This document shows, in pieces, positions 44,430 to 62,841 of a DNA stretch of 64,000 nucleotides. The DNA is from Gluconacetobacter liquefaciens (GTDB lineage: Bacteria > Pseudomonadota > Alphaproteobacteria > Acetobacterales > Acetobacteraceae). Below the pieces are notes generated by a model. The model was not told where the DNA came from, ran no database searches, and was given only the letters and a program-made list of their open reading frames with translations. The position numbers and the translations under genes were made by a program. The stretch lies in assembly GCF_003350405.1 (NCBI RefSeq), contig NZ_QQAW01000002.1:558001-622000 (forward strand), in the 5' to 3' direction. Every line of letters begins with the position of its first letter. The first letter of the stretch is position 1.

Positions 44430-45788
44430 ATGACCAAGACTAGAAAATTGTTCGGCACCGACGGGATTCGCGGTACGGCCAATCAGGACCCGATGACGGT
44501 GGAAATGGCCCAGAAGCTGGGACAGGCCGCCGGCCTGCGTTTTACGCGCGGGACACATCGGCATCGGGTGCTGGTTGGCAAGGATACGCGGCTCTCCGGC
44601 TATATGATCGAATGTGCGCTGGTATCCGGCTTTCTGTCGGCCGGGGTGGATGTGACGCTCGCCGGGCCGATGCCGACGCCCGCGATTGCGATGCTGACGC
44701 GGTCGCTGCGCGCCGATCTGGGCGTGATGATCTCGGCGTCGCACAATCCGTTCGGGGATAACGGCATCAAGCTGTTCGGGCCGGATGGATTCAAGCTCTC
44801 CGACGAGACCGAGGCCGAGATCGAGAGCCTGATGCGTGCCGACCTGACGGGCCGGCTGGCGACGCCCGAGCGGATTGGCCGTGCCTCGCGCCTGAACGAC
44901 GCGGCGGGACGGTATATCGAGAATGCCAAGGCGTCTTTTCCACGCGGGCGACGACTGGATGGGCTGCGCATCGTCATCGACTGTGCCAATGGGGCGGCTT
45001 ATCGAGTGGCGCCGACCGCGCTGTGGGAGCTCGGGGCCGAGGTGATCCGGATCGGGTGCGAGCCGAACGGGGTGAATATCAACGAGAGTTGCGGTTCGAC
45101 TCGGCCGGAGGCGTTGTGTGCGGCGGTTGTGGCGCATGAAGCTGATATCGGCATTGCGCTGGATGGCGATGCCGACCGGCTGCTGATCGCCGACGAACAG
45201 GGGCGGTTGATCGACGGGGACCAGATCCTTGCCCTTATCGCCCGGTCCTGGAGCCGTCAGGGCAGGCTGAGTGCGAACAAGGTCGTGGCCACCGTGATGT
45301 CGAACATGGGGTTGGCGCGCTGCCTGGAAGGGCTGGGGCTGGAACTGGTACGTACGGCGGTGGGAGACCGCTATGTGGTTGAGCGCATGCGCGAACTGGG
45401 CGTCAATCTGGGAGGCGAGCAGTCGGGACACATGGTGCTGTCCGATTTCGCGACGACCGGTGACGGGCTGGTGGCGGCGTTGCAAGTTCTGGCGGTACTG
45501 GTCGAGGAAGGGCGGCCGGCCAGCGAGGTCTGTCGGGTGTTCACGCCCTTTCCGCAATTGCTGCGCAATGTGCGCTTCATCGGCAAGAGTCCGCTGCATG
45601 CGCCCGCAGTGGAGGAAGCGCGCCGGCTGGCGGAGGCCGAACTGGGGACGGCCGGGCGGCTGCTATTGCGTGAAAGCGGGACCGAACCGCTGGTGCGCGT
45701 GATGGCGGAGGCTGAAGATCCGGCGCTGGTGGAGCGGGTGGTTGCCGGAATGTGCGCGGTGATCGGTTCCGCGCAGGAAGCGGCTTAG
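44430..45788 (+). CDS. glmM: Phosphoglucosamine mutase
   Basis: Interconverts glucosamine-6- and -1-phosphate for UDP-GlcNAc and thus peptidoglycan and lipopolysaccharide. 452 residues; start [13 protein letters not shown], phosphoserine loop [18 protein letters not shown] with Ser104, metal loop [13 protein letters not shown], sugar loop GGEQSGHMV and phosphate-binding [12 protein letters not shown]. It starts 18 nt after folP. Confidence 0.97.
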
Positions 45789-45799
45789 GGATTCCGTTC

Positions 45800-46621
45800 A
45801 TGGCCATCATGAAGGGCCGCGTTCTGGTCATTGCCGGCAGTGATTCCGGTGGTGGGGCGGGGATTCAGGCGGATATCAAGGCTGTGACGGCGCTGGGCGG
45901 GTTCGCCATGACGGCGGTCTCGGCCCTGACGGTGCAGAATACGCTGGGCGTGAGCGGAATCATGCCCGTGCCACCCGATATTGTGGCGGCGCAGATGCGT
46001 TGCGTGCTGGACGATATCGGGGTGGATGCCTTCAAGAGCGGCATGCTGGATCGGGGCGAGGTGATCCGGGCCGTGGCGGCGGAGGTGCGTGCCTACCCGG
46101 ATATTCCGTATGTGCTGGATCCCGTGATGGTGGCCAAGGGCGGATCGCGCCTGTTGCAGGATGACGCCGTGGACACGCTGATGCGACATCTGGTGCCGTT
46201 GGCGAGCCTGCTGACGCCCAACCTGCCCGAAGCGGAAGTTCTGGTGGGCCATCCGATCCGTACCGTGGACGAGATGAGTCGAGCTGCGGAGACCTTGCGG
46301 CGCGCAGGGGCACGGGCGGTGCTGCTGAAGGGTGGACATCTGGAGGGCGATATCCTGACCGATGTGCTGTGCGAATCGTCGGGCATCAAACTGTTTTCGG
46401 ATACCCGTCTGCATACCCGGCACACGCATGGGACTGGTTGCACGCTGGCGAGCGCGATTGCCGCCGGGTTGGCGCAGGGCCTGAGCCTGCGGGATGCTGT
46501 GGAACGGGCCCGGCGCTATCTGCGGGCCGCCATCGCGAATGCGCCTGGTTATGGGGCTGGCGCGGGACCACTGAATCATGCCGTGACCGTCGAACCGGCC
46601 TGGGGTGCTCGTGGCGGCTGA
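45800..46621 (+). CDS. thiD: Hydroxymethylpyrimidine / phosphomethylpyrimidine kinase
   Basis: Two-step kinase making HMP-pyrophosphate for thiamine, 273 residues, ribokinase fold. Seen: VLVIAGSDSGGGAGIQADIKA, FAMTAVSALTVQNT, DAFKSGML, YVLDPVMVAKGGSRLL, TPNLPEAEVLVG, LLKGGHL and the anion-hole/base segment HTRHTHGTGCTLASAIAA. It starts 11 nt after glmM; ATG 45800 is preferred, with ATG 45809 (MKGRV) as alternative. No TPP riboswitch seen upstream. Confidence 0.94.
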   Translation: MAIMKGRVLVIAGSDSGGGAGIQADIKAVTALGGFAMTAVSALTVQNTLGVSGIMPVPPDIVAAQMRCVLDDIGVDAFKSGMLDRGEVIRAVAAEVRAYPDIPYVLDPVMVAKGGSRLLQDDAVDTLMRHLVPLASLLTPNLPEAEVLVGHPIRTVDEMSRAAETLRRAGARAVLLKGGHLEGDILTDVLCESSGIKLFSDTRLHTRHTHGTGCTLASAIAAGLAQGLSLRDAVERARRYLRAAIANAPGYGAGAGPLNHAVTVEPAWGARGG

Positions 46622-47263
46622 AAGGCTGTTTGGAAAAGTGCTGATTTTAACGTCTTGGATTTCAATAACGCGGTGAAAAAGTCGAGATCTCCCCGAATCC
46701 GGCGGGGGCGTCGGCGGGAGTTTGCAAAAAGGTGTCGGCCGGAATGGCCGGTGGAAAGCCGGCTGAGGAGGAAGCCCTGAGACTGCCGTTAGCATTTAAC
46801 GACAACAGACGCTGTCAAATGCTTGGATCGTGAGGAGAGGCGCGGAGCCAACCGCGCGTCTGACGGTGATCTTGGAGCATCGGAACTGCCTTGTGGGCGG
46901 TGACCCTCGAGTATTTCCACTGAAAACCGGTTTGATTTAATGCTATAATTTATTGTTTTTAAAAGAATATTTTTCTGTTTGAACGCGCACATTCAAACAG
47001 GATCTGCTTTAGCCACAATCTCCTCAGTTTGAAGTCAGGATCTGTTGATGGGGCCTGACGAGATTGTAGTCGGCATAGCGGTTCGTGACTTCGGGGTCAA
47101 AAAGACCATCCGGCAGGCATCGGAAATGCTCCTGGCAGCTTGATATAACATATTCGTGATCATGACGGTTTGATACCCTAACCCATCCTAAAAGGATTGT
47201 TTGTGGATGATTATACACCTATAGGTAGTAATTGTAGTCAGAAACAATCAGTGGTTGATGAAC
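46622..47263. other. Long intergenic region upstream of the CtrA paralogue
   Basis: About 640 bp with no supported gene, and the point where the sequence turns from GC-rich to AT-rich. It contains the left copy of the 100-bp inverted repeat (46909-47007). Inside that, on the reverse strand at 47024-47218, a 64-codon frame ends with YADYNLVRPHQQ, similar to the YNxxRPH C-terminus of DDE-type transposases; it may be a transposase remnant (low confidence). The last ~90 nt before the regulator are AT-rich and probably hold its promoter, but I cannot place -35/-10 boxes safely. Confidence 0.5.
46909..47007 (-). repeat. ~100-bp repeat, left copy (inverted)
   Basis: On the reverse strand reads GCAGATCCTGTTTGAATGTG, a TTCAAAC arm that pairs with GTTTGAA, then AAAAACAATAAATTATAGC and CAAACCGGTTTTCAGTGGAAATACTC. 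The same sequence, with scattered differences, is found in the opposite orientation at 50987-51086. The two copies bracket a 4-kb segment. Confidence 0.85.
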
Positions 47264-48016
47264 ATGCGTGTCTTGCTCGTCGAGGGGAATGGGAGTGCGG
47301 CTCGTGGTACTTCCAGCACATTGCGCTCTGTTGGCTACATGATCGACCATGCCATGACCGGGCATGAAGCGGTCGAAATGCTCCGCCGTTACGATTATGA
47401 TCTGGCATTACTTGAAATGGTTCTTCCAGATATTGACGGCTATGAAGTCCTGCGGGCAGCGAGGGCTGCGCGGCTGGATACACCCATCGTCGCGTTGTCC
47501 AGCCTGAATGGGGCGCAGGCGAAGGTCCGGGCCTTTTCAGCGGGAGCGGACGATTACATTACCCGGCCCTACGATACGCCGGAATTGGCCGCCCGCATCC
47601 AGGCCATCGTCCGCCGTTCGAAGGGATACAGCCAGCCGGTGCTGCAGGCCGGGGTGGTCAGGCTTTCTCTGGACAGCCGCGAGGTTACGGTAAAGGGGCG
47701 GCTGGTCCATCTGACCGGCAAGGAATACATGATCCTGGAACTGCTCATGCTCCGAAGGGGCACGGTACTGAGCAAGTTCGCGTTTCTCGACCATCTCTAT
47801 GGCGGGATGGACGAGCCGGAAATGAAGATCATTGATGTCTTTATCTGCAAGTTGCGGAAGAAATTGCAACTGGCCGGGGCAAAGGACGTGATTACGACCG
47901 TGTGGGGGCAGGGTTATATGCTGAGGGACGAGACCGATGGTGACACACCGTTGCCGCCCGCGATGACGAAGCCGCAAAGATCGTCCGAGGATCTGCCGTC
48001 GCTTGCTGCTATCTGA
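47264..48016 (+). CDS. CtrA-like response regulator with degenerate receiver
   Basis: OmpR-type regulator (250 residues) whose DNA-binding half closely follows Caulobacter CtrA as I remember it: HLTGKEYMILELLMLRRGT, HLYGGMDEPEMKIIDVF and ICKLRKKL. The receiver (1-120) has the overall CtrA framework (MRVLLVE, YDYDLALLE, GADDYITRP, ARIQAIVRRSKG), but phosphorylation residues are lost: acidic-pocket positions 8-9 are Gly-Asn instead of Asp-Asp, acceptor position 51 is Glu, and the conserved Lys near 101 is Arg. It is therefore probably active without phosphate, since D51E in CtrA is known to be constitutively active. The start at 47264 matches CtrA; ATG 47258 is equally possible. No kinase gene is adjacent. 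Confidence 0.88.
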   Translation: MRVLLVEGNGSAARGTSSTLRSVGYMIDHAMTGHEAVEMLRRYDYDLALLEMVLPDIDGYEVLRAARAARLDTPIVALSSLNGAQAKVRAFSAGADDYITRPYDTPELAARIQAIVRRSKGYSQPVLQAGVVRLSLDSREVTVKGRLVHLTGKEYMILELLMLRRGTVLSKFAFLDHLYGGMDEPEMKIIDVFICKLRKKLQLAGAKDVITTVWGQGYMLRDETDGDTPLPPAMTKPQRSSEDLPSLAAI

Positions 48017-48085
48017 TCACGCTCGGGGGTATAAAACGTATGAACCGGCATAAACGGGGGCGTCAATGACGCTTCCGCGTGCCGC

Positions 48086-48113
48086 AAAAAAAAGCAGGGT
48101 CCGAAGACCCTGC
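48086..48113 (-). terminator. Intrinsic terminator of the GNAT-alkB-yegD operon
   Basis: On the reverse strand GCAGGGTC-TTCG-GACCCTGC (8-bp stem, stable TTCG tetraloop) is followed by eight T residues. It lies about 120 nt after the yegD stop and close to the end of the convergent CtrA-like gene. Confidence 0.93.
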
Positions 48114-48236
48114 AGTTTGCGTGATGATTCGATATGCGATGCCCCCATCGCCCTTTTCTTGTGGCACGGGACGGGGGCATCGGCCTTGATCTGAATCAAA
48201 GTCGGGTGAAAAGAAGGTAAGGTCTGAAAGGATTTT

Positions 48237-49592
48237 TCAGCAGGTAGTGGTGGAGACGCTGGACTGAGGCGCGGTGTTTCCCTGCATCAGGGCCAGCCCT
48301 TCGGCGACCGATACGAACTCTCCACCGCGATCGATTCGCTCGTTGCCGAAACGGGCGGCGAACAGGGCACGGACCGCCGGGACGAACGAAGTGCCGCCAG
48401 TGAGAAACACCCGGTCTATATCGGTTTCGCCCAAGCCCGCGCGCTCCAGCGCCGTCGTCACCGCGCCATCGAACTGTGCCAGATCGGGGGCGATCCAGTC
48501 TTCGAACGCCGACCGTGTGATCGTGCGGTCGATATGGATATCCTTGTGATGGAAGCGGAGGGTGGTACTGTCGGCGTGCGACAGTTCGGCCTTGGCGGTG
48601 CCGACGGCGCGATACAGGGCCTGGCCCTGCTGGTCGGCGACCAGGGTGGCCAGCGCATGCAGGCGATCGGGTTCGGAGGCGGTGCGTGCCACGTCGCTGA
48701 TCGCGCGCAGCGTGGCCGGCGTGCGCATCAGCGACAGGCGGTGCCAGCGCGCCAGGCTGGCGTACCATTCGATCGGCACCGGCAGAGGGGCGCCCCCCAT
48801 GACGCGGTAGGTGCTGTCGCGGCCCAGTTCGGGCGAGACGACGTTGTCGATGATCCGGTAGTCGAACTGGTCGCCTGCGATTCCTACGCCAGCATGACCC
48901 AGCGGAACGGCACGGCCGATTGCTGGGTCGAAGCGCAGGACCGAGAAATCGCTGGTGCCGCCACCGAAATCGCCGACCAGGATCGTGGCCGGCGCGTCCA
49001 GCCGCCGGGCGAAGCGCCAGCCGGCGGCTTCGGGTTCCAGCGCCACCGCGATGCTGCGGAAGCCGGCTTCGGCGAAGCCGTCGCGTAGGCGCTGTTCGCC
49101 GAATGCATCATCAGGAGTCTCGCCGGCGAATTGTACAGGTCGGCCGACCGTGGCATCGACCATGGCGGGGTCGATGCCGACGGCGCGCATCAGTTCGGCG
49201 ACGAAGAAGCCGACGAGGTTTTCCAGCGTCAGCCGCCGGCCTAGCAGGCGTGTTTCGCGGAACGATGTCTGCGCGAGGTAGGATTTTATGGACATGATCA
49301 GGCGGCTTTCGGCCGGATCGTCCAGATAGGCATCGACGGCGGCGGCGCCGATGGCCTGATGAACCGCCAGGCGCCCGCGCTCTTCCTCCTGCCACAGGCA
49401 CAGCAGGGTGCGGCAGGTCTCGGATTCGGGATGGCCGGGAAAGATAAAGCGCGTGGTGTGGGTTTCGCCGTCCGGGGTTGCGATGACGACGACGCTGTTG
49501 GTTGTGCCGAAATCGATGCCGACACGGGGGCGGAGCGCGGGGGTAGAGGACATCATCGCGGGTGAATAAGTGCTGTGGAACGCGATGTCCAT
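48237..49592 (-). CDS. yegD: Hsp70-family YegD-like protein
   Basis: Actin/Hsp70-fold ATPase of 451 residues lacking the substrate-binding and lid domains of DnaK. Nucleotide motifs: VGIDFGTTNSVV (phosphate 1), ILVGDFGGGTSDFSVLRF (phosphate 2) and VFLTGGTSFVPAVRALF (adenosine). The length agrees with E. coli YegD, a protein of unknown role. ATG 49592 is selected by AGGA 8 nt upstream; an internal ATG pair at 49556/49553 lacks a site. It is last in an operon after alkB, 15 nt downstream. In E. coli yegD is next to alkA, another alkylation-repair gene. Confidence 0.9.
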   Translation of the reverse strand: MDIAFHSTYSPAMMSSTPALRPRVGIDFGTTNSVVVIATPDGETHTTRFIFPGHPESETCRTLLCLWQEEERGRLAVHQAIGAAAVDAYLDDPAESRLIMSIKSYLAQTSFRETRLLGRRLTLENLVGFFVAELMRAVGIDPAMVDATVGRPVQFAGETPDDAFGEQRLRDGFAEAGFRSIAVALEPEAAGWRFARRLDAPATILVGDFGGGTSDFSVLRFDPAIGRAVPLGHAGVGIAGDQFDYRIIDNVVSPELGRDSTYRVMGGAPLPVPIEWYASLARWHRLSLMRTPATLRAISDVARTASEPDRLHALATLVADQQGQALYRAVGTAKAELSHADSTTLRFHHKDIHIDRTITRSAFEDWIAPDLAQFDGAVTTALERAGLGETDIDRVFLTGGTSFVPAVRALFAARFGNERIDRGGEFVSVAEGLALMQGNTAPQSSVSTTTC

Positions 49593-54753: not shown

Positions 54754-55905
54754 ATGAAGTTTTGTGTGGTGGGTGCCGGATTCAGCGGTGCCGTCATTGC
54801 TAGGCATCTTGCAGAAGCCGGTCATACCGTGCTGGTGGTGGATGAGCGGCCGCATGTGGGTGGCAACTGCCATACTGAGCGGGATGCTGAAACGGGCGTG
54901 ATGGTCCATTCCTATGGACCGCACATCTTTCACACTGCGGATACACGGGTTTGGCAGTATGTGCAGCGCTTTGGCGTCTTTCGCCCCTACACGAACCGGG
55001 TGAAGGCCGTATCGGGCGGGCACGTCTATTCCCTTCCCGTCAATCTTCTGACGATCAACCAGTTTTTCGGCCGCTGCATGGGACCAAAGGCGGCGCGTGC
55101 ATTTATCGATGCGAAGGCTGACAAGTCCATCATTCAGCCTGCCTCCTTCGAAGAACAGGCCCTTGGAATGATCGGCCCTGAACTGTACAGGGCTTTTTTC
55201 TACGGCTATACACGCAAGCAATGGGGGATCGATCCTGCGGATCTGCCGGCTTCAATCCTGAAGCGCTTGCCGTTGCGTTTTGATTATAATGATAATTACT
55301 TCAACCATCCATATCAGGGCATGCCAGAGGATGGATATACCGCTGTCATAAAAAATATATTGGACGTAAATGGTATGGAAATAAGAATGAACTGTTCGTT
55401 TGAGGATTGTTCTGATGATTTTGACCACGTATTTTATACTGGTCCCATCGATCGATACTTCAATTTCAGAATTGGACGCCTGGCATACAGAACGCTCGAT
55501 TTTGAACGTTTTGTTGAGGAGGGGGATTATCAAGGGAGTGCTGTAATTAATTACTGTGATGAATCTGTACCTTATACGCGCATTACAGAGCATAAATATT
55601 TTGCACCATGGGAAAAGGAGCAATTCTCGAAAACTGTGTGTTTTCGAGAATATAGTCGTTTGGCGCAGAAAGGAGATATTCCATATTACCCTGTCAGGCT
55701 CGTAAATGACGAGGCCTTGATCAATGATTATATAGGTATGGCACGAGAGGAGAAGAAAATCTCTTTTCTCGGTCGTTTAGGTACTTATAGGTACTTGGAT
55801 ATGGATGTGACGATCAAGGAGGCATTGCATGCATGTGACGTGATTGATCATGCTCTCCATTCTCCAGAATTTATGCTGCCGGCGTTTTTTGTGCCCCCTC
55901 ATTGA
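54754..55905 (+). CDS. glf: UDP-galactopyranose mutase
   Basis: FAD enzyme converting UDP-galactopyranose to UDP-galactofuranose, donor for Galf-containing glycans. 383 residues: FAD-binding CVVGAGFSGAVIARHLAE, DERPHVGGNCHTE, SYGPHIFHT, the substrate block FFYGYTRKQWGIDPADLPASILKRLP, and VFYTGPIDRYFNFRIGRLAYRTL, with YPVRLVNDEALINDY near the end. The first ~500 bases are GC-rich like the rest of the chromosome, then base use turns AT-rich inside the gene (around 55265), suggesting a mosaic gene. It opens the glycan cluster. Confidence 0.95.
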   Translation: MKFCVVGAGFSGAVIARHLAEAGHTVLVVDERPHVGGNCHTERDAETGVMVHSYGPHIFHTADTRVWQYVQRFGVFRPYTNRVKAVSGGHVYSLPVNLLTINQFFGRCMGPKAARAFIDAKADKSIIQPASFEEQALGMIGPELYRAFFYGYTRKQWGIDPADLPASILKRLPLRFDYNDNYFNHPYQGMPEDGYTAVIKNILDVNGMEIRMNCSFEDCSDDFDHVFYTGPIDRYFNFRIGRLAYRTLDFERFVEEGDYQGSAVINYCDESVPYTRITEHKYFAPWEKEQFSKTVCFREYSRLAQKGDIPYYPVRLVNDEALINDYIGMAREEKKISFLGRLGTYRYLDMDVTIKEALHACDVIDHALHSPEFMLPAFFVPPH

Positions 55906-55988
55906 GAATTATCGAGGAGCGATCATCTGGAGCTGATGGTTGAATCGAACATCATCCAATAGTCGAAAATTTTACAATGCGAGTGAAC

Positions 55989-56711
55989 ATGAAGAAGTTT
56001 TTTATCAGTCTCGATCGGACCCCCGAGCGCACCGAACGATTTCTGAACGCCAATTCCCATATCGAAGGCTTTATCAAAGCGCCTGGTATCGATGGTTCGT
56101 TATTGGACATTGATGAAATGAAGGCAAAAAGATTTGTCGCAGATAATTGCTGGTTTACCCGGGGCGCCATCGGGTCTGGCCTTACGCATGTCGCCTTATG
56201 GGGCAGCATTGCCAAATCTGGCATCGCAGGACATATCTTTGAGGATGATGCTTTCCTTTGCCGTAATTTCGAGCAGGAAAGCAATCGTGTCCTTGCGAGC
56301 CTTCCGGAGGATTGGGATATCATCCTGTGGGGAAACAATTCCGATACGACGTTGCAGTTCGAGCTTCTGCCCGGGATTACGAACTGTGTAGCGATTTTTG
56401 ATCAGGACTCCGTTCGAAAAGGGATCTCTACCTTTCGGGCGATGAACGTTTCCTCTCTTCCCTTCAGGCTGGACCAAACGTTCGGAATTTGTGGCTACGC
56501 AATTTCGCCCAAGGGTGCCGAAGCTATGATCAAGAGGTGCCTGCCCATGCACACGACCGACATCACCTATTCGTCTCTTGGAAATCGAGTCATTACGGCA
56601 ACTTCGATAGACCATTTGATGAATATGCACTACCGGGAGATGAAAGCGTATATGTGCTTTCCTCCCCTATGTCTGACGGATAACCAGTCTGAAAATAGCC
56701 TGAATAAATAG
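55989..56711 (+). CDS. Glycosyltransferase family 25 protein
   Basis: Predicted cytosolic glycosyltransferase of 240 residues resembling LPS beta-1,4-galactosyltransferases (GT25). The start FFISLDRTPERTERF, the central KSGIAGHIFEDDAFLCRNF with an ED/DD acidic pair (EDD, nucleotide-sugar metal site) and GICGYAISPKGAEAMIKR are typical. ATG 55989 has GAGTG upstream; ATG 55977 would add four residues. AT-richer than the host background, as are the neighbours. Confidence 0.82.
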   Translation: MKKFFISLDRTPERTERFLNANSHIEGFIKAPGIDGSLLDIDEMKAKRFVADNCWFTRGAIGSGLTHVALWGSIAKSGIAGHIFEDDAFLCRNFEQESNRVLASLPEDWDIILWGNNSDTTLQFELLPGITNCVAIFDQDSVRKGISTFRAMNVSSLPFRLDQTFGICGYAISPKGAEAMIKRCLPMHTTDITYSSLGNRVITATSIDHLMNMHYREMKAYMCFPPLCLTDNQSENSLNK

Positions 56712-56765
56712 GGACGATGACCGGGTGAGTTCTATCGATATCTGGAGGCGGTAGCCGGATCTGTG

Positions 56766-56795
56766 ACGGGCCCATGATTTGGATGGCGGGCCCGT
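56766..56795. terminator. Bidirectional hairpin between convergent genes
   Basis: 8-bp perfect stem ACGGGCCC (56766-56773) with GGGCCCGT (56788-56795) in the 91-nt gap between the converging GT25 and GT2 genes. No T-run on either side; probably a shared transcript end. Confidence 0.5.
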
Positions 56796-56802
56796 TGACC
56801 GA

Positions 56803-57624
56803 TCAGGCATCGTCCATTTGCGGCCGGCGTTTGCAATATTCCAATACACGGCTTATTGCTTTATCGTTTTCGCCATTCTGATTGAGATTCCAGAGAGTCG
56901 GTCCTGAATGCCCTGTTCCCGGGAAGACCTCGGATTCCCATTTTTCGGGGGAGGGTACAATCGCAACTGGAATGTTTTTCATAAGAGTATAGAATTTTAA
57001 GGAGATATCGTCCTGGAACGGTGCGAGAGCACGTAGGTTATATAAGGTTTTCAGATCACGAAGATGACTGGAATGATAAAGAATACCGTCTCTTCCTGTT
57101 GGAAAAAACATTAAGGACGGCTGGTCGAGCTGATTTCTTTCAATGAATTGCTCCTTGAAGATACTATTGATAAGAGGCCATATATTGTAAGGAAGAATGT
57201 GCCCATTTTCGATAAGGATCAGCCGGCATCTATAGGCTGATATGCATTTATATTTTTTAGCAACCTTAACCAGTCCCTCCAACCAATTGTCTGGATAGAT
57301 TACGTCGTCGTCAGCGGTTGCGATCCAGACATTTGAATCGGCGTAACGTTCCAATGTTGGTAGTATTTTCCGATATGGGCCGGAATTTGCGCAGTAGCAA
57401 AGCTCAACGCGACCGCGATCGATCATTTGATGAACGAACGGGGGAAGGTCACTCTCTGAAATCCCTTTGTCCTCGAGGAAAGGTTCATGAGAGATATTGA
57501 GAATGATTTTTTGGGCAGGGAGGGTCTGATTCAACAGACTATGAATGACTCTCTCTATATCGGGTAACCGCGACGAAATGCAGGTCAGGGAAATATAGAT
57601 GTGATGATTATCAATATCGTTCAT
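56803..57624 (-). CDS. Glycosyltransferase-like protein (GT2 type)
   Basis: A 273-residue protein with the start of a GT-A fold: IYISLTCISSRLPDIERVIHSLLNQT and, after LCYCANSGPYRKILPTLE, the metal-binding segment WIATADDDVIYPDNWLEGLV (DDD). The second half (FFPTGRDGILYHSSHL, FQDDISLKFY) fits acceptor-side regions of this group. Sugar specificity unknown. The methyltransferase gene ends 15 nt upstream, so the two form a reverse-strand pair. Distinctly AT-rich. Confidence 0.8.
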   Translation of the reverse strand: MNDIDNHHIYISLTCISSRLPDIERVIHSLLNQTLPAQKIILNISHEPFLEDKGISESDLPPFVHQMIDRGRVELCYCANSGPYRKILPTLERYADSNVWIATADDDVIYPDNWLEGLVKVAKKYKCISAYRCRLILIENGHILPYNIWPLINSIFKEQFIERNQLDQPSLMFFPTGRDGILYHSSHLRDLKTLYNLRALAPFQDDISLKFYTLMKNIPVAIVPSPEKWESEVFPGTGHSGPTLWNLNQNGENDKAISRVLEYCKRRPQMDDA

Positions 57625-57639
57625 TGATCGTTCTTACTT

Positions 57640-58269
57640 TTATACCGCCGAGAGAAAGACCGGTTCGTCTTCTCGAGAAAAAATCATAAAGTCAGAAAAT
57701 GATGTGTTATTCTGATCCGATTTATCAAAAGGATATTTATTTGGTAAGTATGCCTTCAACGTCCATCCAATAATATGTTCGCGTGCAAATTTTGTTATAT
57801 TTCTGTGACGGACATGAGTGGCGGGCCATTCGGCATCGACATTACTTGAGTAAATAATGACGTATTTTTTTGAGTGATGGAAAAGATCGTTCATGTATTT
57901 TTTAAAAATATCGTCTTCCACGAGATGAAAAATTACATCCAAAGACAGGACGAGGTCCGCGTATGTATTTTTGTCGATTGTGCCGGATTTCAGGAACGTA
58001 TAGTTCCCCGATGGAAACTTTTTTCTGCAATTATTTATGGTGGTTTCAGAGACGTCCACGCCAATGTAGGAGGCGACGGGTGTCATGAGGCTTAATTGAT
58101 TCCCGTCGCCGCATCCCAATTCCAGGATGGATGAGATACGATTGAAAGCGATGAAAGCGTTCAGGATATCAGCCTTATAGCTCGCCAAGCGACCATATGA
58201 TCCGGCGCCGGAATTTCCATTTTCACTGTATCGCTGTTCCCAATAGGCTTTCGATGAAAACGAATTCAC
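57640..58269 (-). CDS. SAM-dependent methyltransferase (class I)
   Basis: A 209-residue methyltransferase: SSKAYWEQRYSENGNSGAGSYG, the SAM-binding glycine motif SILELGCGDGNQLSLM, the acidic end of beta-2 in YIGVDVSE, and DLVLSLDVIFHLVED. The YWEQRY..GSYG..A start is common in methyltransferases of glycan clusters. Low GC suggests recent transfer. Substrate unknown, possibly a sugar of the Galf-containing glycan. Confidence 0.83.
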   Translation of the reverse strand: MNSFSSKAYWEQRYSENGNSGAGSYGRLASYKADILNAFIAFNRISSILELGCGDGNQLSLMTPVASYIGVDVSETTINNCRKKFPSGNYTFLKSGTIDKNTYADLVLSLDVIFHLVEDDIFKKYMNDLFHHSKKYVIIYSSNVDAEWPATHVRHRNITKFAREHIIGWTLKAYLPNKYPFDKSDQNNTSFSDFMIFSREDEPVFLSAV

Positions 58270-58542
58270 GCCGGGTATCCCTTGTCTGTCTCTTCATTCG
58301 TGCTGCCCCGGAGAGCCAGGCGCAGCCAAACGGCTTTTTGCTCGCGATAGGGCTAGAAGCTCTGGCTGCCAATATATTCCACCTATGGGAAGTGGTCGAG
58401 AACCAAGTGGGATCTGGGGCTATTTCAATCGTATATACCAGTGATATGCCTGTGTATGTCGGATGATTGGGAAGTGGAGACACAGTTGCAAGCGACGTGG
58501 AGACGTGCGACGAGGGCGAACATATTGTCTGGACATGGCTGA

Positions 58543-59274
58543 ATGATAAACATCGAGCAGGTCGATCAGCGCTTCCCGAATGACCATAATCGGCAAGTAG
58601 ATGCTGAATACTATATCCATCGACACTCAACTGCGTCTCATATCGATTTCCTGGATCTTGGTGCGGGGGACGGTCGATCATATGACGTGGCGCGTCAGGC
58701 ATTTCCGGACCTGAACTGGATTGGTGTCGATATCGAAAACAGCCCGGAAGTCGCGTCCCGCAGCCGTAGCGACTGCCGTTTCCACACGTTCGATGGCGTC
58801 AATCTGCCTTTTCAGGATAATAGTTTTGACGTGGTTTATTCGCGGCAGGTTTTCGAGCATGTGAGGCATCCCGAGCCGCTATTGCACGAGGTTGCCCGTG
58901 TGCTGAAGCCGGGTGGCGTCTTTGTGGGTTCCGTATCGCAGATGGAACCATTTCATTCATATAGTTTGTGGAATTTTACCTATTATGGGTTTGCAGTGCT
59001 GGCTGACGAGGCCGGTCTGTCATTGAGTGAATTCCGGCCTGGAATCGACGGCGTGACACTGGCGGTCAGGCATTTCGCACTGTTCGGGCTGGCGCAGGAA
59101 ATGAGAGCAATCTTTGCGTCCATGTTCGCCGTGGATTCTCCAATCAATGTCCTGATCGGTAACATTGCTTCCGGACGCCGACGCTCAGTGGCGGAGATCA
59201 ATCGACTGAAGACGACGTATTGCGGTCATCTGTGTTTCGAATTCCAGAAGCCGTTCGATGGATCTAGTCGTTAA
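58543..59274 (+). CDS. SAM-dependent methyltransferase (Methyltransf_11 type)
   Basis: A 243-residue class I methyltransferase: FLDLGAGDGRSYDVARQAFP (motif I), WIGVDIENSPE, then LPFQDNSFDVVYSRQVFEHVRHPEPLLHEVARVLKPGG, typical of the UbiE/Methyltransf_11 group. The C-terminal ~90 residues are less familiar. It is divergent from the other methyltransferase gene with a 273-nt AT-rich gap in which no further feature is evident. GC is intermediate between core and cluster. Confidence 0.85.
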   Translation: MINIEQVDQRFPNDHNRQVDAEYYIHRHSTASHIDFLDLGAGDGRSYDVARQAFPDLNWIGVDIENSPEVASRSRSDCRFHTFDGVNLPFQDNSFDVVYSRQVFEHVRHPEPLLHEVARVLKPGGVFVGSVSQMEPFHSYSLWNFTYYGFAVLADEAGLSLSEFRPGIDGVTLAVRHFALFGLAQEMRAIFASMFAVDSPINVLIGNIASGRRRSVAEINRLKTTYCGHLCFEFQKPFDGSSR

Positions 59275-59416
59275 CGGGGCTTTTCGTCGTATCCTGTTTC
59301 TGAAGAGGAGGATGACCAGGGAGGACTCTCCTCTTCTGCTTTTCTTTCCATTCGGGTGCATCCGACCGGCGTGCAATTCATGCGTGCTTCCGGCGGATGC
59401 TGCGCTATAAGTTTTT

Positions 59417-61699
59417 CTACGCCATCACTGTGATCGTATCCTGTATTTTTTGCCGATATTCCGGTTTTGCCAAGCGCATGGCGGCTTTGAATATGTCGCG
59501 CTTCCGTTCGCGTGGGGTTCGTTGGAGTGCTTCGTCCAGATCGTAAGAGAGGTTTGTTCGGCAAACTGCCGTGACCTGATTCAGAAAACCAATCGGTCCA
59601 AGCCGGTCTAGGTAGAAGGGCAAGCTGACTTCATTGATCTGCGGATCATAAACGACCGATGGTAAATCGTTCAGAATGGTGCGGCGAGACATGAACGAGG
59701 AGAAGTTCATTCCTAGATTGAGGGAAGGCGGAGAGAGGACGAAGTTGCCGTCAGGTCGTGAATTGAATCCATGCGGTTGTTCAGGAAGGCGGAGAGCAGC
59801 CGGTACACTCTCTGACGGTTCGATGCGCGAGAAAATCATGGAGGCGGTGGGAGTTCTTATCAGGCATTCAAGCTGTTTTGCATTTTTTTCCGGGTCTGCC
59901 CAAGTGTCGCCGCCCTTGAGAACTGATATGAAATTGGCTGCGGCATTCTGAATTGCATATCGGTAATTCTCGGAGAAGCCGACAGATTGCGTGCGGCCGA
60001 CATTCCGGATGATCAAGGGATATTTCTCGGCGTAATACGCTACGATCTGTGCGGTGCCGTCGATAGAGCCGTCGTCTGACAGAATGATCTCGTGTTCAAA
60101 ATTACCCCGTTGTCCGAGTGCGCTTTCGATCGCCTGCGCTATGTGGTCGCGATTGTTTCTGCTGAGAATGAGAGTGGACACAGTTTCACGCGGGCCATAT
60201 TTGGAATGTACGCGTACCTTTGCCCGTGTCAGCGATTCCTTGACCGTTATTCTGCTTACGTCGTTCGGATCGTCGTGGTAGTCGAGGAAGACTCTGGGAA
60301 CAAATATGGGTTCCTTTTCCTGCGTGTATCGTATGATCAGGTCCCAATCTACCAATCGACGCAGATCGGGGTCGAAGCCTCCCCATTTTGAGACGAGGGA
60401 GCGTCGATGGACGAAAACGCCGATATCGATAAAATTCTGATGTAGAAGAGCATTCCTGTTAAAGGGACTGCCTATCGCGATACCGCGTTCGCCGACGAAT
60501 ATCTTTCCGTAGAATGCGTCGGCCGTCCTGTTCTGTGTGATCGTATTGGCGATCATGGACAGAAAATAAGGACGCAATATGTTGTCGCTGTCCACATAAC
60601 CGATCCATGGGTTGCACGCCAAGGCGATACCAAGATTGCGAGCATTCGATACCCCGATATTTTCAGGAGATCGAATGTATTTTATGCGGCCTGTGGCGAT
60701 TTCTGTTTGAAAAGTCTGCTCGATTGTAAATTGTGTATTATCGGTTGACCCGTCATCCACGATGATGAGTTCGAAATTTTCATGGTTTTGAGCCAGTGCC
60801 GCCCTGATGGCAGCCGTAATAGAGGATGCACGATTATAGGTGGCCATGATGAGGGAAAAGGCAATGTCCGTAGCGTCTTCGAACTGTTTGATTTCAACGT
60901 CGAAACTGGCGAGTTCGTAAACTGCTGGTGCGTGTCGTCTGAGCCAGGCGAGAAGGCGGTTCTGACCGTCCATATTGAGGTGGGGAACGGTCAGTGCAGT
61001 GATATTGACCAGCGGAAGGCCCTGCTGGAGAAGGTAAAGGGGAGAAAAAATGATATTGGAGTAGGCGGGATCTGACGGATGGGCGGCAGCCAGCCGGTTT
61101 TCGATGAAGACACCGGAGAGAAATCCGGCGTCGCATAATGTTCTTGTCAGGCCAAGTTCATATTGGTGAATGACTTGCGATATTTCTGTGTGACTGGTGA
61201 TCTTTGAAATGAATTTATTAAAAACTTCCGAAATAAAGACATTCCTGCTTATATTCAGAAAATAAGTTTGTACATGGTAGGAGTGCTCTCTGCTATCGGT
61301 CGCTCCCCAGAAATCCAGTTGCCGTGCGTCCATGATTTCGAACATCGGCAAGAACGATCCGACCGGCCCCAGGAAGGTGTCGTTGCAGAGGATCAGACTC
61401 TCCGCCGTATCAAGAAGGCCGTTGTCGAATGCCCACAGGGTGCCACGTTTATAGCATCCGTAATGGTATTCATCGTGCGGCTCGGCGATGACGTGAAGGG
61501 CATAAGGGGCGAGCGCGTCATACTGATCGGGTGCGAGAGTGCCGTTGCAGACGACGATAATGCTGTCGCTGACTGCCCGGAGACCTTCGAGATAGGGAAG
61601 GGTCTGTGACAGCAATTGTCCATCGGAGACGGATGCCGAGAAAACGGAGACTCTTCTGACTGACGACCGCATGTTCAAGTAGGAATGCTCCATTTCCAC
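59417..61699 (-). CDS. Three-domain glycan synthesis protein: RgpF-like plus two GT2 domains
   Basis: A 760-residue protein. Residues ~15-255 resemble the rhamnan-synthesis F (RgpF) family (IIVVCNGTLAPDQYDAL, YGCYKRGTLWAFDNGLLD, ESLILCNDTFLGPVGSF). Residues ~280-480 form one GT2 domain (SLIMATYNRASSITAAIRAAL, LIIVDDGSTDNT, WIGYVDSDNILRP). From ~510 a second GT2-like domain follows (STLILSRNNRDHIAQAIESAL, HEIILSDDGSIDGT) where the usual third acidic motif reads SVLKGGDTWADP (GGD). It ends in a short helical tail. Probably adds several sugars of one repeat unit. Confidence 0.8.
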   Translation of the reverse strand: MEMEHSYLNMRSSVRRVSVFSASVSDGQLLSQTLPYLEGLRAVSDSIIVVCNGTLAPDQYDALAPYALHVIAEPHDEYHYGCYKRGTLWAFDNGLLDTAESLILCNDTFLGPVGSFLPMFEIMDARQLDFWGATDSREHSYHVQTYFLNISRNVFISEVFNKFISKITSHTEISQVIHQYELGLTRTLCDAGFLSGVFIENRLAAAHPSDPAYSNIIFSPLYLLQQGLPLVNITALTVPHLNMDGQNRLLAWLRRHAPAVYELASFDVEIKQFEDATDIAFSLIMATYNRASSITAAIRAALAQNHENFELIIVDDGSTDNTQFTIEQTFQTEIATGRIKYIRSPENIGVSNARNLGIALACNPWIGYVDSDNILRPYFLSMIANTITQNRTADAFYGKIFVGERGIAIGSPFNRNALLHQNFIDIGVFVHRRSLVSKWGGFDPDLRRLVDWDLIIRYTQEKEPIFVPRVFLDYHDDPNDVSRITVKESLTRAKVRVHSKYGPRETVSTLILSRNNRDHIAQAIESALGQRGNFEHEIILSDDGSIDGTAQIVAYYAEKYPLIIRNVGRTQSVGFSENYRYAIQNAAANFISVLKGGDTWADPEKNAKQLECLIRTPTASMIFSRIEPSESVPAALRLPEQPHGFNSRPDGNFVLSPPSLNLGMNFSSFMSRRTILNDLPSVVYDPQINEVSLPFYLDRLGPIGFLNQVTAVCRTNLSYDLDEALQRTPRERKRDIFKAAMRLAKPEYRQKIQDTITVMA

Positions 61700-61903
61700 T
61701 TTTTATTCTCTTTCAGAATAGAAGGATATTGCGATGGTGCGTGAGAGGCCGTGATGGCGGGCTGGGCCGGTCCACTGCCGAGGCAGCGCACGTTATCATG
61801 ATCGGCTGACATACTCTGCGTGAGGCCCTGTTACCGGAAGGAAAGGGGCGGCCCGTCGTGAGAGGGTGTTTTCGGAAGGGCTCTGGGGCTGGATGGGCCA
61901 GAG

Positions 61904-62061
61904 CCGGTTTGGCAATTGTGGGCTGGTGAGCGAGAGCGGCCCAAAGGGGCCGCGCCCGGGCTGTGTTTCCGAGCATCGGAGCGGAGCGGCCTTGATGGCC
62001 GTCCGTCGCGAAGCACAGGAAAAACGCGTCGGACTGCGGCCAGCGCGCATTGCCAAACAGG
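61904..62061 (+). repeat. Stop-codon-adjacent stem-loop element, copy C
   Basis: About 158 bp with arms CCGGTTTGGCAATTGTGGGC (left) and GCGCGCATTGCCAAACAGG (right); TTTGGCAA pairs with TTGCCAAA. The core (GTTTCCGAGCATCGGAGCGG, then apical CGGCC-TTGAT-GGCCG, then AAGCACAGGAAA) matches copy B closely. It lies 3 nt beyond the DUF3431 gene stop. Its GC-rich sequence stands out in the AT-rich glycan cluster. The 204 bases to its left (61700-61903) show no further feature. Confidence 0.85.
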
Positions 62062-62064
62062 TTT

Positions 62065-62841
62065 TCAGAAAGTCTGCGGGAGCCGGCGGGGGGAGGCATC
62101 AGTGCCGATGGATATGAAGGGTCTCCCAAAAAAATGGAGCCAAAGACGTTCCATGATATGGCCTGCCATCTGATTCGTGCGCACTTCGTGAAGGGCCCGG
62201 AGGAATATATCGTTGGAAATATGACTGACTACGCTATTTCTGACACCGAAAATGGCGGCATAGGGGAATTCTCCTAACGTTGCTTGCGCAGCCTTGTGCC
62301 GGGCTGCCTCGTAGCCAATGCGTCCGAAGAAGTCTGCGGCGATGTTCGTTCCGTTTTCGACCCCATAGAAGGAGAAATAGAGGCGTGATATCAGGAAGGC
62401 GCCTTCGTCGAATGAATAGATCGGCCCCCAGTTGTAGAGGGAGAAAATTTCATTGCGCGTCGGCTGCCCGGTTCTTGCAATGTGAGTCTCTATAAGATGG
62501 GCAGGGGGAAAGCCCTGTTTCCACTGTGATGAGTATCCCCACGCATCATCCGCGAACCTATGTGTCAGCAGGCGAAGAAAATCCGGAGAATGTTCGAAGG
62601 GGTCCCCCTGCGAGAACACGGTAAATGAATCCGTTTTCCCCATATTATGTATTATATGAAGAAGATAGGTATCCGATTCACGGCCGATATTCTGGATACG
62701 GAAATATCCTTTTAGTTTCGATCTTATATTTGAGATATCAAGCTCATCGCCTTTGTTGTACAAAAAGATATTAAAATCGTCTGGTACGTTCACGAGCCAC
62801 GAAACGTCTTCATTATACCGTGCTATGACAAGATCTGGCAC
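62065..62841 (-). CDS. DUF3431 domain protein
   Basis: A 258-residue protein with the DUF3431 pattern: DLVIARYNEDVSWLVNVPD at the start, IFLYNKGDE, RIQNIGRESDTYLLHIIHNM and VFSQGDPFEHSPDFLRLL, with a final basic C-terminus. The family is often found in surface-glycan clusters and resembles inverting glycosyltransferases, but activity has not been assigned to my knowledge. The last codons (PRRLPQTF) run up to stem-loop element C and may have been changed by it. Confidence 0.8.
   Translation of the reverse strand: MPDLVIARYNEDVSWLVNVPDDFNIFLYNKGDELDISNIRSKLKGYFRIQNIGRESDTYLLHIIHNMGKTDSFTVFSQGDPFEHSPDFLRLLTHRFADDAWGYSSQWKQGFPPAHLIETHIARTGQPTRNEIFSLYNWGPIYSFDEGAFLISRLYFSFYGVENGTNIAADFFGRIGYEAARHKAAQATLGEFPYAAIFGVRNSVVSHISNDIFLRALHEVRTNQMAGHIMERLWLHFFGRPFISIGTDASPRRLPQTF

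Follow-up and report, generated by a model that had tools for sequence, protein, structure and literature searches.

The window analysed here, 64,000 nucleotides of the Gluconacetobacter liquefaciens contig NZ_QQAW01000002.1, carries a ctrA gene on its forward strand (Table 1). The product is an OmpR/PhoB-type regulator in which Pfam recognises both a receiver (74.9 bits) and a C-terminal DNA-binding domain. At the positions where canonical CtrA has E-D-D, D51 and K101, the alignment gives E7-G8-N9, E51 and R101. The protein aligns without gaps to canonical family CtrA (65% identity over 222 residues), shares 61-81% identity with 16 family CtrAs, and contains the CtrA-type DNA-binding stretch HLYGG.DEP..KIIDVFICK.RKK. 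Among 94 NCBIfam families the CtrA equivalog NF045991 is the best match at 318.3 bits, below that model's cut-off of 350 bits; the name of the model points to Rhodobacterales. A search of the whole genome (G000; 4.17 Mb, 31 contigs, 100% complete) found no second CtrA, and the next regulators have at most 40% identity to the window protein. Being closest to family CtrA, the sole copy found and located in a conserved locus, the window CtrA is, as far as sequence comparison establishes descent, a CtrA orthologue. The initial annotation had called it a paralogue, which this result overturns; it had also looked to a second, canonical CtrA in the genome, and that none was found is one half of what it had set against its own reading.

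Table 1. Features of the ctrA locus, in window coordinates.
Feature	Position	Strand	Basis
thiD-like gene, upstream neighbour, synteny conserved	45752..46621	+	named by eye
Upstream element ATATAACATATTCGTGA	47143..47159	+	alignment of 10 Gluconacetobacter
Promoter-like block TTGTTT-17-TATAGG, overlapping palindrome ACCTATAGGT	47197..47226	+	conserved in genus; inferred by eye
ctrA, CtrA orthologue with pseudo-receiver, 250 aa	47264..48016	+	frame and genome search
Pseudo-receiver domain, residues 1-117	47264..47614	+	PF00072 match 3-113
G8 and N9 codons (canonical CtrA: D8, D9)	47285..47290	+	sequence, alignment
E51 codon GAA, phospho-acceptor position	47414..47416	+	sequence, alignment
beta5-alpha5 stretch, dimer-interface D96, D97, E107, R111, R117 and R118 retained	47549..47617	+	conservation; roles from the accessible text of PMC8329863
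R101 codon CGG, conserved Lys position	47564..47566	+	sequence, alignment
DNA-binding part, residues 127-222, strongly conserved family-wide	47642..47929	+	PF00486 match 146-220
Terminator-like hairpins between ctrA and the Hsp70-like gene	48094..48182	.	hairpin scan
Hsp70-like gene, downstream neighbour	48237..49592	-	named by eye

Of 23 loci from Gluconacetobacter, Novacetimonas and Komagataeibacter (L009-L031), 22 have the order glmM-thiD-ctrA, the exception, L022, having only 114 bases upstream, and the window matches Gluconacetobacter dulcium DNA at 95.9% identity over 8.75 kb. The Hsp70-like gene lies downstream of ctrA in L009-L015 (about 2 kb further away in L015); L016 and L020 show no such gene within 4 kb of ctrA. 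No kinase sits beside the gene, in agreement with the initial annotation, both neighbours having been named by eye. The same annotation placed ctrA in a small segment bounded by inverted repeats, whereas the hairpins around the gene are separate and for the most part terminator-like (46973-47002, 48094-48113 and 48136-48182) and no matching terminal repeat pair occurs in 46400-48400. The hairpins downstream of ctrA were probably among those inverted repeats; read on the Hsp70-like gene's strand, the one at 48094-48113 resembles a terminator. A mobile segment was considered and rejected, as related genera share the gene order of this locus. The upstream element is kept with one or two changes in all 10 Gluconacetobacter sequences aligned, where much of the flanking DNA is unalignable. 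The promoter-like block is absent from the results of a consensus promoter scan.

Alignment to DrrD identifies the acidic pair of the receiver as E7-D8, with N9 as the next position; E7 is therefore kept, and the change of D8 to Gly removes an acid of the Mg2+ pocket. The residues first reported (Gly-Asn, Glu51 and Arg for the conserved Lys) are all confirmed, and their description as a replaced Asp-Asp pocket is right for D8 but overlooks the retained E7. The G. dulcium locus (L009, 97%) has the same receiver residues, and E51 is found in the window and in all nine named Gluconacetobacter sensu stricto loci fetched (L009-L016 and L020), so G8, N9, E51 and R101 are not sequencing errors, an explanation that had been entertained for Glu51. 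With D51, D8 and K101 all gone the phosphorylation site is dead, as proposed: canonical phosphorylation chemistry, judged by these residues, is lost from the window CtrA, which as a receiver fold without the phospho-acceptor Asp belongs with the atypical response regulators, or pseudo-receivers (ALR). The predicted model has a receiver fold (pLDDT 90-96 for residues 1-80 and 75-89 for residues 81-120, the dimer face), and matches 4qpj_C, a CtrA receiver solved with a phosphotransferase, at 0.9 Å over 118 columns. A fold search with the predicted receiver also returned RitR and an atypical orphan regulator.

The phosphotransferase ChpT gave no PF10090 match in G000, with a positive Caulobacter control, and none in six of six Gluconacetobacter genomes. 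Across 249 family genomes, 157 match PF10090 at E ≤ 0.001 and 150 score above the curated cut-off; we class the 249 as 143 firm (E ≤ 1e-4), 14 weak and 92 negative. A family profile made from 14 Acetobacteraceae ChpTs was run on 80 genomes, mostly PF10090-negative, and matched 35 of them at E ≤ 0.01, with no match in G000 at that threshold. Clear ChpTs emerged in G164, G109 and G130 (1e-52 to 1e-31). Leaving aside G244 and G224, the other matches are weak (1e-7 to 0.008) and fall within open frames of 423-1190 residues; in three of the six Gluconacetobacter genomes (G123, G215 and G247; about 1e-5) they lie inside REC-PAS-HK-REC hybrid-kinase frames. A 77-residue ChpT fragment in G244 is ambiguous. 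A 226-residue ChpT-like match in G224 was rejected because, on visual inspection, it carries HDLNN and an ATP-binding motif and looks like a piece of a kinase.

For CckA, the reference protein was taken from G031 through its flhB-cckA-recA neighbourhood, which we take to be the usual setting of cckA. Matches at E ≤ 1e-70 occur in 172 of 249 genomes and in none of the six Gluconacetobacter. With the best five kinase candidates scored per genome, an orthologue cut of our own choice above the paralogue background (E ≤ 1e-84) retains CckA in 111 of the 143 firm ChpT-positive genomes versus 1 of 83 ChpT-negative rows (G087), and the remaining 32 firm ChpT-positive genomes miss this cut as well. The best CckA-core match in G000 is a REC-PAS-HK-REC kinase. 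The candidates L148 (by eye) and L163/L186 were rejected as CckA on domain order. Such absence calls depend on thresholds and genome completeness; at those used here G000 has none of what defines the CckA-ChpT-CtrA phosphorelay, namely D51 with an acidic pocket and K101, ChpT, and CckA. The initial annotation had the window CtrA competing with or bypassing the phosphorelay. With no canonical CtrA, ChpT or CckA orthologue found in G000, there is nothing left to compete with.

We then read CtrA residues in 120 genomes of this one family, the Acetobacteraceae, with position 51 present in 119; G086, where it is missing at a contig end, was left out of the residue counts. The 120 comprise 34 of the 143 firm, 7 of the 14 weak and 79 of the 92 PF10090-negative genomes, the 13 unread negatives having no CtrA at E ≤ 1e-45 or a weak edge match (G094, G128). 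By hand, the weak matches G001, G009, G017, G192, G224 and G232 were reassigned to the ChpT-negative class and, after the family profile, G130 (weak), G109 and G164 (both PF10090-negative) to the ChpT-positive class. G244, with its fragmentary match, was kept out of the pair test and counted as ChpT-negative elsewhere. A canonical receiver, taken as an acid at position 8, D51 and K101, is present in 51 of 51 sampled ChpT-positive genomes (37 of 37 and a further 14 of 14; 48 of the 143 firm genomes plus G109, G130 and G164) versus 9 of 82 ChpT-negative genomes. Position 51 in these 82 is Glu in 44, Asp in 22 and R/A/H/S/G/N in 16. Genomes of one genus are non-independent; counted by genus the canonical state is found in 25 of 25 ChpT-positive versus 6 of 38 ChpT-negative (Fisher 3e-12, a value that ignores relatedness). 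On an unrooted rpoB tree of 73 of the 80 genomes searched (seven had no usable gene), 67 of which bear both traits, the minimum number of changes is 8 for ChpT and 9 for the canonical state. Supported branches yield four independent pairs, of which on average 3.8 go in the same direction and 0 in the opposite one (p 0.125, too few pairs for the test to reach 0.05). Contrasts also exist within genera: ChpT-positive, canonical G130 versus G053, G179 and G217, and ChpT-positive, canonical G084 versus G148 with E51, the latter being assembled in 600 contigs with 5% contamination. In G168 there is an additional, unusual CtrA copy in which position 51 is Asp and the K101 region is missing. Within the sampled genomes, ChpT absence and a decayed receiver are shown to recur together across the Acetobacteraceae.

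The nine ChpT-negative genomes with a canonical receiver are G013, G017, G030, G039, G041, G087, G163, G227 and G244; G013, G017 and G030 are 97-99% complete and the other six 73-90%. No decayed receiver occurs among the 51 sampled ChpT-positive genomes, which suggests that relay loss came before receiver decay. Together with the nine, this makes E51 appear to follow relay loss and not to replace a working relay. The later steps can be followed on a tree of glmM from 33 named loci, which has no outgroup, so that the order of decay was read with Acetobacter as the outside group. The nine Acetobacter on this tree have EDD/E51/K101; G. diazotrophicus, G. johannae and G. tumulisoli have lost D8 and kept K101; and the window's Gluconacetobacter subclade has G8 and R101. 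N9 is confined within the Gluconacetobacter clade to the window and G. dulcium. In one subclade of Komagataeibacter position 51 is Asp, against Glu in its relatives, a single change where D8 and K101 were already gone, and most simply one from E to D. Among 11 fetched loci titled Acetobacter, ten combine E51 with intact D8 and K101; the other, the metagenome-assembled L056 outside the glmM tree, has D8, E51 and R101.

A rival hypothesis is that E51 itself acts as a mimic of phospho-Asp and keeps CtrA active at all times, as the engineered D51E form is believed to do in Caulobacter; this form is reportedly the subject of a paper by Siam and Marczynski. Glu is indeed the residue seen most often at 51 when ChpT is missing, the rpoB tree places it on distinct branches (the acetic-acid-bacteria block, G148 and G081, with the same residue in G146), and the ten Acetobacter-titled loci reproduce the configuration of the engineered protein. 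Glu as a possible constitutive activator is discussed in the accessible text of PMC12632262 and PMC4395418. Against a phosphomimetic role, the same text describes cases of activity surviving replacement of that residue, the window CtrA has Arg for the conserved Lys and no D8, the 16 ChpT-negative genomes with R/A/H/S/G/N at position 51 have conserved DNA-binding domains, and the Komagataeibacter change between E and D took place in a dead pocket. Asp-to-Glu is moreover a one-base change and in any case the commonest pseudo-receiver substitution, with Glu at the phospho-acceptor position in 26% of pseudo-receivers according to the accessible part of PMC4395418. In Rhodobacter capsulatus, as far as the accessible text of PMC6363796 goes, overexpressed non-phosphorylatable D51A CtrA gave a 2-fold rise in gene-transfer-agent transfer, and D51E gave none. 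We regard a CtrA locked on by phosphomimicry as doubtful. Of the initial reading, phosphorylation-independent action stands as the best explanation; that E51 itself does the locking is unproven, given the other residues found at this position elsewhere.

In redundancy-reduced sets of 32 ChpT-positive rows, 25 rows with E51 and 13 with another residue at 51, the DNA-binding domain averages a column entropy of 0.81, 0.88 and 0.91, respectively. Within the receiver of the E51 set, entropy rises most in the pocket (+1.47), the beta3-alpha3 loop (+0.89), alpha3 (+0.82) and alpha1 (+0.78), and least in beta5, beta2, alpha4 and alpha5 (+0.21 to +0.33); the pattern is less clean in the other set (beta5 +0.57, alpha1 +0.61). 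Part of the rise is divergence, since ChpT-negative rows are more divergent overall. Receiver positions conserved at 90% or more number 44 with ChpT (37 rows) and 15 without (82 rows). All 15 are already among the 44, seven lie in beta5-alpha5, and six (D96, D97, E107, R111, R117 and R118) belong to the dimer interface. The accessible text of PMC8329863 gives K87/E107, D97/R111 and D96/R118 as the pairs of the active-dimer interface; the window CtrA has all of these alpha4-beta5-alpha5 residues of the OmpR/PhoB type. Among 83 ChpT-negative rows D96 and D97 are each kept in 82 (one gap each), E107 in 81, R118 in 83, R111 in 78 with Lys in the other 5, and K87 in 64 with Arg in 17. Comparing a dimer set (K87, D96, D97, E107, R111, R117, R118) with a phospho-site set (E7, D8, D9, D51, S79, K101), both picked post hoc, 6 of 7 versus 0 of 6 positions remain at least 90% conserved without ChpT (p 0.005), K87 being Lys or Arg in 81 of the 82 rows; the phospho-site set against the other conserved positions gives 0 of 6 versus 15 of 38 (p 0.08).

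In seven comparisons within Gluconacetobacter, dN/dS is 0.04-0.16 for the receiver, with dS near saturation in three, and 0.05-0.23 for the DNA-binding domain. The low receiver values show purifying selection within the genus, as codon comparisons can reveal it, and the pseudo-receiver is therefore maintained. They speak against a pseudogene or junk receiver heading for loss, as do the strong conservation of the DNA-binding domain and the occurrence of E51 in each of the 10 sequences examined from Gluconacetobacter sensu stricto. Such decay might be read from G247, where ctrA is split by indels near the receiver end (this genome is 99.4% identical to G215 over 1.8 kb), from the split frames in G032, G062, G109 and G217, and from the 11 of 80 genomes searched with no CtrA at E ≤ 1e-45. 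Some of the frameshifts may be assembly errors, however, and two of the five genomes with a split ctrA are ChpT-positive; we hold decay towards loss to be highly improbable for the window gene.

Selection on the receiver without free drift, and a CtrA in a single frame in 114 of 120 genomes, would also be expected if the pseudo-receiver had been re-wired to switch without phosphate in answer to another cue, such as a ligand, redox state or a partner protein. Redox or ligand control of pseudo-receivers has precedent (PMC12632262, accessible text). A newly conserved position is lacking, however, all 15 positions kept without ChpT being within the 44, and the E51 set relaxes most at the pocket, the beta3-alpha3 loop, alpha3 and alpha1. 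A re-wired sensor is thus possible but rather unlikely. Still less credible, and only slightly more likely than decay, is phosphorylation of a different CtrA residue by some other kinase. G000 has 27 HATPase_c matches, and D46, Y43 and Y45 are conserved both with and without ChpT; yet the pocket acid D8 and K101 are lost as well, and alpha1, a usual docking helix, is relaxed too.

With the DNA-binding half and the pairing surface kept, the CtrA of Gluconacetobacter, and of many related bacteria, is probably an unswitched transcription factor. The explanation we favour, and consider likely, is that it is the genus's single ancestral CtrA, turned into a phosphorylation-independent transcription factor after loss of the CckA-ChpT relay. 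In this scheme the lineage would have lost the relay and been left with its one CtrA. The pseudo-receiver would have been retained for forming the 'active' alpha4-beta5-alpha5 dimer without phosphate, and this dimer would place two DNA-binding domains on paired half-sites. E51 may help to stabilise the active state, and would not be needed in every lineage. Output would be set not by a kinase but by the amount of CtrA, through the conserved promoter block and perhaps proteolysis, or by an unknown cue. Control by amount is probable because the promoter-like block and the upstream element are conserved in the genus.

Full TTAA-N7-TTAA sites are not enriched in G000 (7 versus 22 for the reversed control), and their count exceeds the genome's own control in 1 of 17 genomes (G008). 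The flagellar rod genes of G000 lie at C2:337-396 kb, and one of its seven sites, at C2:380930, is in this flagellar region between genes that by eye are fliP-like and chemoreceptor-like. The 15 bases of this site recur in G174 and in G215, in the latter on a different contig from the rod genes. Among 20 genomes tested, nine retain CtrA although flagellar rod genes gave no match in them. Rem and FtcR are described, in the accessible portion of the literature, as flagellar CtrA-like regulators.

More broadly, we tentatively propose that CtrA has repeatedly been turned from a phosphorelay output into a transcription factor that is dimeric and needs no second component. Loss of the relay would come first, and CtrA would survive as its receiver dimerises alone. 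The pocket would then decay stepwise (towards the window in the order E51, position 8, R101 and N9), and Glu at 51, fixed along several branches, would stand in for the phosphate. CtrA is the textbook phospho-switch of alphaproteobacterial cell cycle and motility control. Its apparent loss of input together with its continued conservation amounts to a replicated natural experiment on a global regulator, in culturable bacteria known for vinegar, cellulose or nitrogen fixation, and one in which evolution separates the receiver surfaces needed for phosphotransfer from those needed for dimerisation.

Degeneration of the relay in Rhodospirillales was already reported in 2010; our searches of openly licensed papers turned up no account of decay in the CtrA receiver. 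The accessible text of Brilli 2010 (PMC2877005), which does not name Gluconacetobacter, describes a Rhodospirillales cluster that lacks relay members to varying extents, with cckA present and no chpT orthologue, and proposes substitute phosphotransferases or divergence. That study did not settle how CtrA receives its phosphate in the absence of chpT; the sequences compared here suggest that many of these lineages do not phosphorylate it at all. Tomasch 2021 (PMC8116508) gives, in its accessible text, chpT, cckA and divL in 27-36% of Rhodospirillales versus 72-82% for ctrA, gcrA and ccrM. Loss of the CtrA phosphosite is not described in the accessible text of either study, and in Gluconacetobacter CckA was also not found. 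CtrA is not mentioned in the main text of PMC12632262 or PMC4395418, nor in that of an acetic-acid-bacteria proteomics paper (PMC13214618).

Canonical CtrA and the window CtrA share a two-domain layout, a similar DNA-binding domain and, as noted, a receiver fold that in the predicted model matches closely; they differ in the phospho-acceptor Asp, D8 and K101, all missing from the window protein, and in ChpT and CckA, for which no orthologue was found in G000. Engineered CtrA D51E has Glu at 51 in common with the window CtrA, but keeps D8, D9 and K101 beside a working relay, whereas the window CtrA differs at all three positions and no relay was found beside it in G000. The closer natural match to the engineered form is Acetobacter CtrA, with EDD, E51 and K101. 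A receiver without the phospho-acceptor Asp is shared with ChxR, RitR and HP1043. The accessible text of PMC12632262 lists Glu for the phospho-acceptor Asp and Arg for the Lys among the most frequent changes in pseudo-receivers, and gives Asn as the most frequent replacement of the second acid; the window CtrA has Gly there and Asn at the next position. Unlike the atypical regulators described, the change in CtrA tracks the absence of its phosphotransferase in many lineages.

Two short blocks 5′ of ctrA show few changes among ten Gluconacetobacter sequences, while much of the DNA flanking them cannot be aligned; they likely constitute a ctrA promoter and operator. Within the receiver domain, Y43, Y45 and D46, at the start of beta3, are each present in all 37 CtrA sequences from genomes with the phosphotransferase ChpT, and in 81, 80 and 79, respectively, of the 83 from genomes without it. 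In one Komagataeibacter subclade (loci L023-L027 and L030) position 51 is aspartate, found alongside P8 and R101. Because the pocket has these two residues, this Asp51 is unlikely to be usable. At locus L281 (G247:C3:833500-835300), indels near the receiver end give an apparent split of ctrA, either real or a sequencing error; this region is 99.4% identical to that of the Gluconacetobacter diazotrophicus-like genome G215.

Features in the window (bare coordinates) and elsewhere in the source genome (G000)
Feature	Coordinates	Context	Basis
Upstream block ATATAACATATTCGTGA	47143-47159	5′ of ctrA	Alignment of 10 Gluconacetobacter sequences
Promoter-like block TTGTTT-17-TATAGG, overlapping palindrome ACCTATAGGT	47197-47226	5′ of ctrA	Same alignment
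UDP-galactopyranose-mutase-like, glycosyltransferase-like and methyltransferase-like gene block	54754-62841		Named by eye
Distant CtrA-like regulator	G000:C2:342189-342824 (L002:1468-2136)	Adjoins flgD-like gene (named by eye)	40% identity
TTAA-N7-TTAA site TTAATAAGTCGTTAA	G000:C2:380930-380944 (L322:1001)	Between fliP-like and chemoreceptor-like genes	

The distant CtrA-like regulator, the second of its kind in the source genome, has a CtrA-like DNA-binding half and, as in CtrA itself, a degenerate receiver, with Gln at the Asp position and Lys absent, and is probably a flagellar regulator. The same genome carries three histidine-kinase frames side by side (C2:519921-525716), one of which (L163) has the order REC-PAS-HK-REC; similar kinases are found in related genomes. 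In the window itself, two measured genes of the sugar-related block have a GC content of 0.48-0.49 versus 0.63 for the window, which suggests that the block is a horizontally acquired surface-sugar island.

The 15 bases of the TTAA-N7-TTAA site recur identically in G174 and G215, and in the latter they lie on a different contig from the flagellar rod genes. The flagellar rod family PF00460 gave no match in 9 of the 20 genomes tested (G184, G135, G222, G073, G226, G008, G013, G040 and G214), all nine of which retain CtrA. Since CtrA is kept where no PF00460 match was found, it probably has non-flagellar targets in these nine genomes.
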